DNA of 64,000 bases from Marinicella sediminis (GTDB lineage Bacteria; Pseudomonadota; Gammaproteobacteria; Xanthomonadales; Marinicellaceae), in the NCBI RefSeq assembly GCF_002000055.1, contig NZ_MVBD01000006.1, positions 186,001-250,000 of the forward strand, written 5' to 3'. This document shows, piece after piece, positions 17,329-21,929 of the stretch (its first letter is position 1; the number at the start of each line of letters is the position of its first letter). The translations under genes were made by a program, and so were the position numbers. The notes beneath the pieces were generated by a model. The model saw nothing but the letters and a program-made list of their open reading frames with translations. It was not told the origin of the DNA and searched no databases.

Positions 17329-17370
17329 TTGACAATTGTCAAACACTGCTTTTAACGCTTTTTTTACAAT
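17329..17370 (+). promoter_or_regulatory. FNR-like palindrome and -10 box before ompW
   Basis: TTGACAATTGTCAA (17329-17342) is a perfect 14-base palindrome that fits the FNR/Anr pattern TTGAY-N4-RTCAA. A good -10 hexamer TACAAT lies at 17365-17370, predicting a transcription start near 17377. That places the palindrome centre (17335.5) at about -41.5, the spacing expected of a class II FNR-activated promoter. OmpW is known to be FNR-controlled in E. coli, which supports the reading. Confidence 0.6.
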
Positions 17371-17398: not shown

Positions 17399-18067
17399 AT
17401 GAAAAAAGTATTGGCAGCGACCCTGGCTCTGATGAGTTTTAATGCCCTGGCTGTAGAAAAAGGTGATTGGCTGTTACACATTCGTGGCATCAACATTTCA
17501 CCGAACGATGACAGCTCCCTGATACATGTCGATGGCGCAGGTGTAGCAGGTACTGGAGTGACCGTTGATGACAACCCCAGCCTGGACATTTCCCTGGGCT
17601 ATATGTTTACTGATAACTGGGCTGTGGAACTGTTGGCTGACCTGAGTTCTAAACACACGGCTTCAGCTTATGGCCTTGGTGGTCTTGGCGTTCCTGATGG
17701 AACCGATGTGGTTGACACCAATGTCCTGCCACCTACTGTTTTTCTGCAGTATCAGTTTAATCCCAAAGGCAAAGTCCGACCTTATATGGGTGTTGGTCTG
17801 AACTATACCCTGTTTTTCAATGATGACCTGACCGCACCAGCTCAGGAAGTGTTGGGTGCCAGTAACCTGGACCTGGATTCTTCTGTGGGTGCTGCAGCAC
17901 AATTTGGTATTGACTGGGAATTACAAAATAACTGGTCATTCAATGTCGATGTTAAATACATCCAGATTGATACGGAAGCCACTTTTGATACCGCCATTGG
18001 TCGTGCATCCGTTGATATTGACATCAACCCCACTGTTTTAGGCATCGGATTTGGCAAAACATTCTGA
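17399..18067 (+). CDS. ompW: OmpW family outer-membrane protein
   Basis: Eight-stranded outer-membrane barrel thought to pass small hydrophobic molecules. A signal peptide (MKKVLAATLALMSFNALA) precedes the motif GDWLLHIRGINISPNDDSS, a variant of the OmpW GxxxVRxGxxxxxP element. Later strands include LPPTVFLQYQFNPKGKVRPYMGVGLNY, and the C-terminus is GIGFGKTF, ending in Phe. The 222-residue length is normal. ATG 17399 follows cagagaaaacac. The promoter carries an FNR-like palindrome at the class II position, suggesting induction when oxygen falls. A terminator follows. Confidence 0.92.
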   Translation: MKKVLAATLALMSFNALAVEKGDWLLHIRGINISPNDDSSLIHVDGAGVAGTGVTVDDNPSLDISLGYMFTDNWAVELLADLSSKHTASAYGLGGLGVPDGTDVVDTNVLPPTVFLQYQFNPKGKVRPYMGVGLNYTLFFNDDLTAPAQEVLGASNLDLDSSVGAAAQFGIDWELQNNWSFNVDVKYIQIDTEATFDTAIGRASVDIDINPTVLGIGFGKTF

Positions 18068-19207: not shown

Positions 19208-19232
19208 ACCTCCGCCCGTTCGGGGGTTTTTT
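19208..19232 (+). terminator. Intrinsic terminator after the DUF1328 gene
   Basis: ACCTCCG-cccgtt-CGGGGGT forms a 7-bp stem with one T-G pair, followed by T residues. It lies between the convergent DUF1328 and MBL-fold genes. Confidence 0.8.
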
Positions 19233-20034
19233 ATGAACCGTACAAGGCCAACGGCGCCGAATAATGTGCTTGCTTCAATAAATCCATGCCACACTCAAGG
19301 TCACTGATCCAATCAAGAAACTGACCAATTACCCGAGCTCCTTTGAAAGCCTGTCCATGTTGTGGCACGATGGCTTCCACATCAAGCTTTTCAACCATTC
19401 TGGCCCAGTGTCTGGCGGCTTTATTTGAACCCATGTATCGCCGATGAAAGCCTTCCATCAATGGAATATGGGCCTCAAAATCAGTCACATATGCGGTTGA
19501 TTCATCCCCTCCAATGGATGCCCCCATGTCACCGGAAAACAATATTTTGCTGACTGGGTCATACAATTGAAAGTTACCGACTGAGTGTAAAAAATGAGCC
19601 GGTAACATAACCAGTTCACTGTCACCAAACGGTAACCGGAAACCCTCATCTGGAATCTGAATGACCCTTTGATTGAAGTCGCCCACTTGTTTATCTACAT
19701 GCGATGAAACCAAATGTGGCAGAAACCGACCCCATAAGCTGGAGACCAGTACACGGCATGCAGAGTTCATCACCCAGCGATCAATCGATGCGATGATGTC
19801 CGGATCCTGATGAGAAGCAAAAATATAGTCCAGCTCTTTCGGGTTGATGTAACGGGTGATGGCGATGTTCAGCGGAATATACGTTAAGTCGCCACCCGGG
19901 TCCAATAATATCGACTGATCACCATTGAGGATGAGGAACTGATTGGCCTGCACCCCTTCGCCTTCAACCAAATCATTGAAAGCCAGGCAGAGGTGTTTGC
20001 CGTGACGAAACAACACTTCAGGCTTGCCTTGCAT
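19231..20034 (-). CDS. MBL-fold oxygen-binding di-iron (ODP) domain protein
   Basis: Metallo-beta-lactamase-fold protein of 267 residues related to the di-iron domain of flavodiiron proteins. Visible elements are SHQDPDIIASIDRW (metal-site HxDPD), LPAHFLHSVGNFQLYDP and LFSGDMGASIGGD. There is no flavodoxin domain, so a separate electron donor would be needed for oxygen or nitric oxide reduction; some stand-alone members act in oxygen sensing. Start is ATG 20034. It lies downstream of the antiporter gene on the same strand, 65 bases away, with no clear promoter between. Exact function is unknown. Confidence 0.8.
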   Translation of the reverse strand: MQGKPEVLFRHGKHLCLAFNDLVEGEGVQANQFLILNGDQSILLDPGGDLTYIPLNIAITRYINPKELDYIFASHQDPDIIASIDRWVMNSACRVLVSSLWGRFLPHLVSSHVDKQVGDFNQRVIQIPDEGFRLPFGDSELVMLPAHFLHSVGNFQLYDPVSKILFSGDMGASIGGDESTAYVTDFEAHIPLMEGFHRRYMGSNKAARHWARMVEKLDVEAIVPQHGQAFKGARVIGQFLDWISDLECGMDLLKQAHYSAPLALYGS

Positions 20035-20099
20035 GAATAACTCCTGGAAACGAAAGCAGTTATTGTAGACAAGCCGGGATGTACTTTATTTGACAAATA

Positions 20100-21929
20100 T
20101 CAAACGATGGGTTGATTATCCTCTTCTTTTTCTGGTATCAAACCAACCAATGTCCATTCAGTGCCAAGCTTTTCAACGCTTTCTTTGCGGGTGAAAACCT
20201 TCAACTGTTTGCCGTCTGCTGAAATTCCAAACATGGGAATCACTCCTTTGCCATGCTGTTCCAGGTATTGTTCATATCCATATTCATCAGACAAAGTGGT
20301 ACTTTTGATTTTGGCACCCTTAGATAACAAACTGGCCAGTTTTGCGTACGTGATGTCCCGATCAAATAAGTTTCTGGCTTTGCCCTCACGGGAAACGCTG
20401 TGCTTGTGTTCATCACGGTTCCTCTCTTCCTCGTTGAGGACAAAAATGTTGGCCACCCCAAACTCCCTTTTATAGCGGGTCGCTGCCAACAGGTTAAGGT
20501 CTTTGTTCATCGATAATGCCAACATTTTACCAATCCCGATCAAATCCAGGTGTTGATCGGCATGTTCTGAAACCACATTGCCATAATAAGTACGGATGTC
20601 TTTCATTCTGGCATCTCTGATATAGCGCCAATGAGAATCTGTCAACAAACATTCAAAACCATGTTTATTCAGCGCTTCAGCAATCGCCACCGCAACCGGG
20701 TTGCTGCCCACCACCAAAATGCCTTTGGACTCAGGATTAGCCACACCCAGCTTTTTTGCCAGATAACCGGCTGTGGCAGACTGGAACACCACGGTTCCAA
20801 TGATCACCATAAAGGTCAGTGAAACCAGCAAATTGGCTTCACTGTAACCTTGTTGTTCAAGCTTCAGGGCAAACAACGCAGAAACCGCAGCGGCGACAAT
20901 CCCCCTAGGCGCTATCCATGACAACACCACACGTTCCTTAAAATTCAGGTCTGAACCCCAGGTTGAAATCAATATTTTCAATGGTCTGGCAACGAATTGT
21001 ACCACCAGCAAAATCACCAGTGACAACCATCCGATATTCAAAAACTCCTGTAAATCAAGTCGCGCGGCCAAAATGATGAACAGCCCTGAAATCAACAACA
21101 CCGTCAAAGATTCTTTGAAATTCAGGATGTCCTCAATGGGGGTGTTTTTGCTGTTGGCCAGCCACATACCCATCACTGTCACAGTCAATAGACCGGACTC
21201 ATGAGCCAAGTGGTTAGACAATGCAAAAACCGCAAAAACCAGGGTCAGGGTGAATACATTATGCAGGTATTCCGGTAACCAATGACGACGCAGAACCACA
21301 CCCATCAAATGCCCACCCAGTGCACCCAACACCAGGCCAACCAGAAAAATCCAACCAAAGTCCAAAAACACACCCATCAGGCCTTCTGCACCTTGCTGGG
21401 ATGATATAATGAAGTTAAACACCAACACCGCCAGTAAGGCACCCAGCGGATCAATCACGATGCCTTCCCAACGCAGCACATTGGCCACTTTTTTGTTGAG
21501 TTTAAAAATTCGCAGCATTGGTACGATCACTGTCGGACCAGTGACCACCACCAACGAACCGAACAACAAAGACAACAACCAGGGCAGATCAAGTAACCAA
21601 TGGGTGGCCACCGCTATGGTCAGCCAGGTCACAATCATGCCCAGCGTAACCATTCTCCTGACCACTGACTCCAAACCGCGGATTTCGCGTAAGTTCAGGG
21701 TCAATGCCCCTTCAAACAGAATCACCGATACCGCCAGAGAAACCATAGGAAATAACAAATCTCCAAAAATCAGGTCAGGGTCAATCAGTCCGGTCACCGG
21801 CTTACCGAGGATGATGCCCAATAAAAGCAGCAGCAAAATGGATGGCAGTTTAAGCCACCAGGCCAGCCACTGGGCCAAGGAGCCCAGTATGCCAATCGCT
21901 GCTATTGACAGCATCAAATGTTCAGACAT
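20100..21929 (-). CDS. CPA1-type cation:proton antiporter with RCK/TrkA-N domain
   Basis: Inner-membrane Na+ or K+/H+ antiporter. About twelve membrane helices occupy residues 1-390, including the conserved LFEGALTL and GIVIDPLGALLA segments (ion-binding Asp). A cytosolic TrkA-N/RCK-like domain follows (GILVVGSNPVAVAIAEALNKHG, a Rossmann nucleotide fold). The C-terminal tail resembles a TrkA-C or KTN regulatory region. The 609-residue length fits antiporters gated by nucleotide. ATG 21929 lies two bases after the TerC stop, so the two are co-transcribed. Which cation is carried cannot be read from the sequence. Confidence 0.9.
   Translation of the reverse strand: MSEHLMLSIAAIGILGSLAQWLAWWLKLPSILLLLLLGIILGKPVTGLIDPDLIFGDLLFPMVSLAVSVILFEGALTLNLREIRGLESVVRRMVTLGMIVTWLTIAVATHWLLDLPWLLSLLFGSLVVVTGPTVIVPMLRIFKLNKKVANVLRWEGIVIDPLGALLAVLVFNFIISSQQGAEGLMGVFLDFGWIFLVGLVLGALGGHLMGVVLRRHWLPEYLHNVFTLTLVFAVFALSNHLAHESGLLTVTVMGMWLANSKNTPIEDILNFKESLTVLLISGLFIILAARLDLQEFLNIGWLSLVILLVVQFVARPLKILISTWGSDLNFKERVVLSWIAPRGIVAAAVSALFALKLEQQGYSEANLLVSLTFMVIIGTVVFQSATAGYLAKKLGVANPESKGILVVGSNPVAVAIAEALNKHGFECLLTDSHWRYIRDARMKDIRTYYGNVVSEHADQHLDLIGIGKMLALSMNKDLNLLAATRYKREFGVANIFVLNEEERNRDEHKHSVSREGKARNLFDRDITYAKLASLLSKGAKIKSTTLSDEYGYEQYLEQHGKGVIPMFGISADGKQLKVFTRKESVEKLGTEWTLVGLIPEKEEDNQPIV

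Follow-up and report, generated by a model that had tools for sequence, protein, structure and literature searches.

A probable class II FNR-dependent promoter upstream of ompW in Marinicella sediminis

Which regulator, and which signal, controls the ompW gene of Marinicella sediminis is the question raised by a perfect palindrome of the FNR/DNR type, TTGACAATTGTCAA, that lies a short distance upstream of it. The initial annotation of this region placed the palindrome at -41.5 of a promoter with the geometry of FNR-activated promoters, by which an outer-membrane pore would be induced at low oxygen. We followed this up in the window, by which we mean the whole stretch of 64,000 nucleotides that was analysed (positions 186001-250000 of the contig), in the 3.99 Mb draft genome to which it belongs (98.3% complete) and in related genomes.

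The palindrome occupies positions 17329..17342 of the + strand and is followed, after 22 bases, by the -10 element TACAAT (17365..17370, +). From its centre at 17335.5 there are 29.5 bases to the first and 34.5 to the last base of this element, and the transcription start, predicted from the -10 element only as the base seven past it (17377, +), puts the centre at -41.5; the annotated distance of 29-35 bases and the position relative to a predicted start are thus confirmed by the coordinates. The gene downstream encodes an outer-membrane beta-barrel protein of 222 aa (17399..18067, +, with its ATG at 17399), and its assignment to the ompW family holds by the match to Pfam OmpW (PF03922, 5.1e-51, 173.8 bits against a cut-off of 24), the score with the NCBIfam OmpW model (5.4e-45) being under the curated cut-off (153.3 vs 287 bits). 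As a palindrome of the TTGAY-N4-RTCAA type at about -41.5, with a gap of 22 to the -10 element, the site has the arrangement of a class II promoter. It agrees with the strict E. coli FNR box TTGATNNNNATCAA at 8 of 10 positions, the fifth position of both halves being different, which is a point against an FNR site. In a promoter scan this -10 element was not paired with any -35 element, as would be expected if an activator is required. Just 5' of the -10 element, at window positions 17352-17364, there is also a TTAAC with a run of T, which recurs in 7 of the 14 ompW loci of the genus.

With regard to chance, the exact TTGAC/GTCAA form TTGACNNNNGTCAA occurs once in the window, compared to a mean of 0.16 in 200 first-order Markov shuffles. 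The pattern TTGAYNNNNRTCAA alone was not significantly enriched (2 in the window, shuffle mean 0.86), and neither was the palindrome alone when one mismatch was allowed (6 seen in the window vs 3.55 expected). The combination of TTGAYNNNNRTCAA and TACAAT after 22 bases, on the other hand, was found twice in the window and not at all in the 200 shuffles. The case is made by spacing and conservation.

An OmpW match was obtained in 45 of the 61 genomes, and the upstream regions of the best 30 matches were compared, comprising 23 loci from the family and 7 from the order outside the family. In 22 of the 23 family loci a 9-10/10 site (TTGAYNNNNRTCAA) is combined with TANNNT at a gap of 21-22, and the remaining locus (L084, genome G014) has an 8/10 site, ATGACAATTGTCAT, with TATAAT at gap 22. 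At most loci of the genus both half-sites have C as their fifth base, and the nine loci of the sister genera read TTGAT-N4-GTCAA or TTGAT-N4-ATCAA. Outside the family, five of the seven loci carry a 10/10 site, three of them with TANNNT at gap 22; the other two have no site, which counts against our reading. When the 14 genus loci were aligned, the 14 columns of the site averaged 1.75 bits, compared to 0.26 in the 60 columns upstream. Because the alignment anchor had been picked by score, the same anchoring was repeated on 300 shuffled sets, in which the site reached a mean of 0.59 bits and a maximum of 0.75. A site of at least 9 together with TANNNT was present in 13 of the 14 real loci, and in a mean of 0.007 loci in the shuffled sets. 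Five of the six -10 columns are invariant across these 14 loci, but only two of the five are independent, as TANNNT was rewarded by the anchoring. The expectation that palindrome and spacing would recur in relatives was accordingly borne out. The four central bases of FNR boxes are normally free, whereas here (17334-17337) they show conservation across the genus, with a mean of 1.63 bits (vs a mean of 0.23 and a maximum of 0.55 in the anchored shuffles), perhaps because a further protein is involved or because high affinity is required. Two genomes, G006 (L086) and G014 (L084), have two FNR-type sites 5' of ompW, 61 and 50 bases apart, respectively.

A further site of this type, TTGATATTTGTCAA as read on the - strand, is located at 20090..20103 and is followed after 22 bases by TACAAT (20062..20067, -), a geometry identical to that of the ompW promoter. 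The gene behind it (19231..20034, -) encodes a protein of metallo-beta-lactamase fold from the ODP family (Pfam PF19583, 6.5e-73; no match in NCBIfam). From the expansion of the Pfam name, ODP presumably stands for oxygen-binding diiron protein, and such a gene would fit an oxygen regulon. Of four ODP genes compared in relatives, those in L075 and L082 have the same promoter, and those in L084 and L086 are without a 9/10 site.

In the genome as a whole, TTGAYNNNNRTCAA was found 107 times (reversed pattern 9), TTGACNNNNGTCAA 22 times (reversed 6) and TTGATNNNNATCAA 31 times (reversed 1). The reversed pattern differs in dinucleotides, and spacing was therefore given more weight than counts. Sequences were retrieved for 65 of the 107 sites, namely the 50 at the head of the list and, beyond the window, the 15 TTGACNNNNGTCAA sites that were not among these. 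Around the first 50, taken in both directions, TANNNT occurred 8 times at gap 22 vs 27 times over the other 37 gaps (8-45); for the later 15 it was seen at gap 21 in three cases, at gap 22 in one and at other gaps in seven, which counts against our reading. Sites with a gap of 21-23 precede hemN, isocitrate dehydrogenase, norC and a nirS-like gene (identified by inspecting the translations, with no profile search), and likewise genes of cytochrome b561-like, UspA-like and CBS-domain proteins (by inspection). Many other genomic sites appear to be intragenic and may be due to chance. The arrangement is also kept in relatives: in all 15 genus loci compared, hemN is preceded by a site scoring 9/10 or better and, at a gap of 21-22, by TANNNT, and norC shows the same geometry in 14 of the 16 loci with upstream DNA. 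In one genome, G013, the motif count is inflated by an array in which TTGACTGAAGTCAA occurs seven times, once with an altered base, at intervals of 127-138 bases (G013:C1:1119684-1120470).

Searches with the HTH_Crp_2 and cNMP-binding profiles had three proteins of the genome in common, L001, L002 and L003; a fourth, weak HTH_Crp_2 match had no match to the cNMP-binding domain. L002 is CRP, scoring over the NCBIfam cut-off. The top PDB match of L003, whose gene adjoins the nirS-like gene, was a DNR, that of P. aeruginosa (3dkw, 1.6e-31). L001 had a solved FNR as its top match (6.7e-36) and has the CRP/FNR architecture, with the cNMP-binding-like and HTH_Crp_2 domains both over their Pfam cut-offs; its score with the NCBIfam Fnr model, under the cut-off (155.8 vs 228 bits), counts against the assignment. 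The E-x-x-S-R motif of the recognition helix is present as EETLSR in 15 of 15 FNR sequences of the genus, and four cysteines are invariant among them. The FNR/Anr homologue that had been sought for this promoter is thus L001.

A site lies upstream of the fnr gene itself at every locus compared in the genus (15 of 15, one of them at 9/10) and in the sister genera (12 of 12), and at none of the three loci outside the family that came from the FNR search, which counts against our reading. Many fnr genes of the genus have the TTGAC/GTCAA form upstream, and that of M. pacifica (L160) carries exactly TTGACAATTGTCAA. These sites are mostly without TANNNT at class II spacing, which suggests that fnr may be autorepressed. 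Of the 20 DNR loci, one of which had only 76 bases upstream, none has a 10/10 site and two have one at 9/10. Moreover, fnr adjoins ompW in six other genomes, three from sister genera (G028, where there is a fragment at the contig end, G029 and G030) and three from two other families (G045, G050 and G054). In G045, where FNR has the ordinary CxxCx5C, hemN, fnr and ompW are consecutive on one strand. Taking E <= 1e-20 as presence of ompW and E <= 1e-30 as presence of FNR, 22 of the 33 family genomes have both, five have FNR only, two have ompW only and four have neither. The exceptions count against our reading: G009 and G025, drafts with a completeness of 88% and 94%, have ompW and lack an FNR-grade match, and G013, G016, G023, G024 and G026 have FNR and lack an ompW-grade match. 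Such absences are weakened by the draft status of many family genomes. Two members of the same genus, G008 and G010, gave no FNR or norC match, only weak matches in the DNR search and no ortholog-grade OmpW match, which suggests that this anaerobic branch was lost in them.

The FNR of the genus (L001:1483-2202, -) has an unusual cysteine arrangement, which likewise counts against the assignment. All 15 genus sequences have CxxCxxC, as CGDCELC, near the N-terminus, and not CxxCx5C, which is present in the 12 sister-genera and the 3 other order FNR sequences aligned (12/12 and 3/3); the distal C121 is invariant and followed by RRxR. A scan of 84,980 species genomes, which required either CGDCELCT without mismatch or another short peptide, matched 31 stretches, 13 of which encode a relative; looser variants would be missed by it. 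The 13 loci belong to Marinicella meishanensis, M. marina, M. litoralis, M. pacifica and M. gelatinilytica, three Marinicella sp. records and five MAGs labelled Gammaproteobacteria or Lysobacterales. In the tree all FNRs of the genus group together (100/100), with a very long stem (2.37), and join the sister genera at 93/100; long-branch warnings apply to this placement, and DNR fell there too. An AlphaFold model had a mean pLDDT of 64.2 with a shallow alignment, and no conclusion was drawn from it. The stretch QGDE is a sigma-contact region of E. coli FNR; at the corresponding place 10 of the 15 genus sequences have QGDER, and the other five have QGEER, KGEER or HGEER. The helix AEETLSR is found in 26 of 30 sequences (15 genus, 11 sister), the exceptions being one sister sequence that is cut short and three order members that differ. 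As to precedent, none of the titles or abstract openings among the literature matches listed describes a CxxCxxC variant of FNR. An FNR lacking one of the four cysteines has been reported (PMC6659574), so cysteine variants as such are known.

Taken together, we consider it probable that the ompW region is a class II FNR-dependent promoter, at which FNR would bind TTGACAATTGTCAA at low oxygen and activate ompW. As oxygen falls, the FNR of the genus would keep its iron-sulphur cluster and dimerise; the dimer would then bind at -41.5, in place of a -35 element, and contact RNA polymerase, whereby ompW would be switched on from the predicted start. The nearby ODP-family gene would be served by an identical promoter.

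The nearest alternative is that the same class II promoter is used mainly by DNR (L003), in which case ompW would respond to nitric oxide in the course of denitrification and not to low oxygen. DNR is present beside the nirS-like gene, norC has sites of the same geometry, and Anr and Dnr of P. aeruginosa are described as sharing an indistinguishable box (PMC6588701). The norC box is mostly asymmetric, with TTGAC-N4-ATCAA at 11 of the 15 loci where a site precedes norC, whereas that of ompW is symmetric; the idea, prompted by the list of sites in this genome, that symmetric TTGAC/GTCAA marks FNR targets and TTGAT-containing boxes DNR targets was, however, rejected because hemN, norC and fnr of relatives disagree with it, and with hemN and fnr sites of mixed form the box does not distinguish the two regulators. 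We nevertheless favour FNR as the main user, since fnr carries such sites, since it adjoins ompW elsewhere, and since three genomes (G011, at 9/10, G050 and G060, the last without TANNNT at gap 22) have a site upstream of ompW and an FNR match but nothing of DNR grade; that DNR is the main user is thus unlikely. As norC shares the geometry, these boxes are probably read by DNR as well, and ompW may answer to both regulators. With an NO-type paralogue present that may share the boxes, the annotated oxygen signal is favoured over NO rather than demonstrated.

Another reader of TTGACNNNNGTCAA, e.g. an HcpR-type protein, seems very improbable. The consensus wyTTGACnnnnGTCAArw has been assigned to HcpR in delta-proteobacteria (PMC1274295), and the conserved central bases of the genus ompW sites would agree with a further reader, but the HTH_Crp_2 search gave FNR, DNR and CRP besides the weak fourth match, and the TTGAC/GTCAA form is also found at many fnr genes of the genus. 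With an assembly 98.3% complete, a regulator gene may have been missed. That the palindrome lies by chance near an unrelated promoter is hardly credible: the palindrome with one mismatch is by itself at chance level in the window, but the conserved site and spacing contradict this reading, as does the peak of -10 elements at gap 22 among the 50 sampled sites.

A more far-reaching proposal, which we hold to be rather doubtful, is that the oxygen switch of Marinicella was rebuilt, with a cluster on CxxCxxC and the distal cysteine, a new basic RRxR segment, the family-specific AEETLSR helix and a change of the ompW and fnr boxes from TTGAT to TTGAC, so that sensor and box would have changed together. 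It is rated lower because TTGATNNNNATCAA is still enriched in all 18 genus genomes (20-64 vs 0-3 for the reversed control), by which a drift of the whole regulon to TTGAC was rejected, and because TTGACNNNNGTCAA is not above its control, or by one site only, in five of them (G001, G002, G003, G011 and G012). In the sequences compared, the drift to TTGAC is visible only at ompW and fnr. The residue before the glutamate of the recognition helix was also tried as an explanation for the fifth-base C and rejected, as the sister genera share the helix and yet have mixed boxes; in PMC1274295 this residue is tied to a base other than the fifth, and a literature search on V208/S212 gave nothing useful.

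Compared to class II FNR promoters, for which a centre at -41.5 is given in PMC4886647, the ompW promoter shares the FNR-type palindrome at that position, a good -10 element and the lack of a reported -35 element at the usual distance, and differs in having C/G at the inner positions (TTGAC/GTCAA) instead of T/A. The HcpR box described in PMC1274295 has the same ten specified bases as TTGACNNNNGTCAA; HcpR is there said to be without the FNR cysteine motif, and an HcpR-type protein was not found in this genome.

These results add to the Marinicella group an ompW promoter that is well supported and probably anaerobic, in which the link between FNR and ompW recurs and the architecture is simpler than that of E. 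coli. FNR-type promoters persist here beside a lineage-specific FNR that departs from the textbook cysteine spacing, and with the Marinicella protein it can be tested directly whether a fixed ligand spacing is needed. OprG of Pseudomonas is a homologue of OmpW, and Anr has the canonical cysteine spacing, in contrast to the CxxCxxC of Marinicella FNR. The gene oprG is likewise an outer-membrane protein gene with an Anr box, reported for all five species compared, and its expression is lower in anr mutants of PAO1 (PMC6588701). As described in PMC4886647, E. coli ompW has FNR at -81.5, where it activates by counteracting H-NS, and at -126.5, where it represses, with CRP at -42.5; the activating FNR site is itself imperfect (9/10). 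An ompW-family gene with FNR sites upstream, at the transition between aerobic and anaerobic conditions, is thus common to both organisms, and the E. coli parallel drawn by the initial annotation stands for control by FNR. It does not extend to the geometry, as E. coli ompW in that account is not a class II FNR promoter and Marinicella has one, simpler class II site; paired sites were seen only in G006 and G014, where they are reminiscent of the E. coli pair. Control of ompW by FNR/Anr is already known in E. coli and Pseudomonas, and Marinicella is a further case, with a geometry different from that of E. coli.
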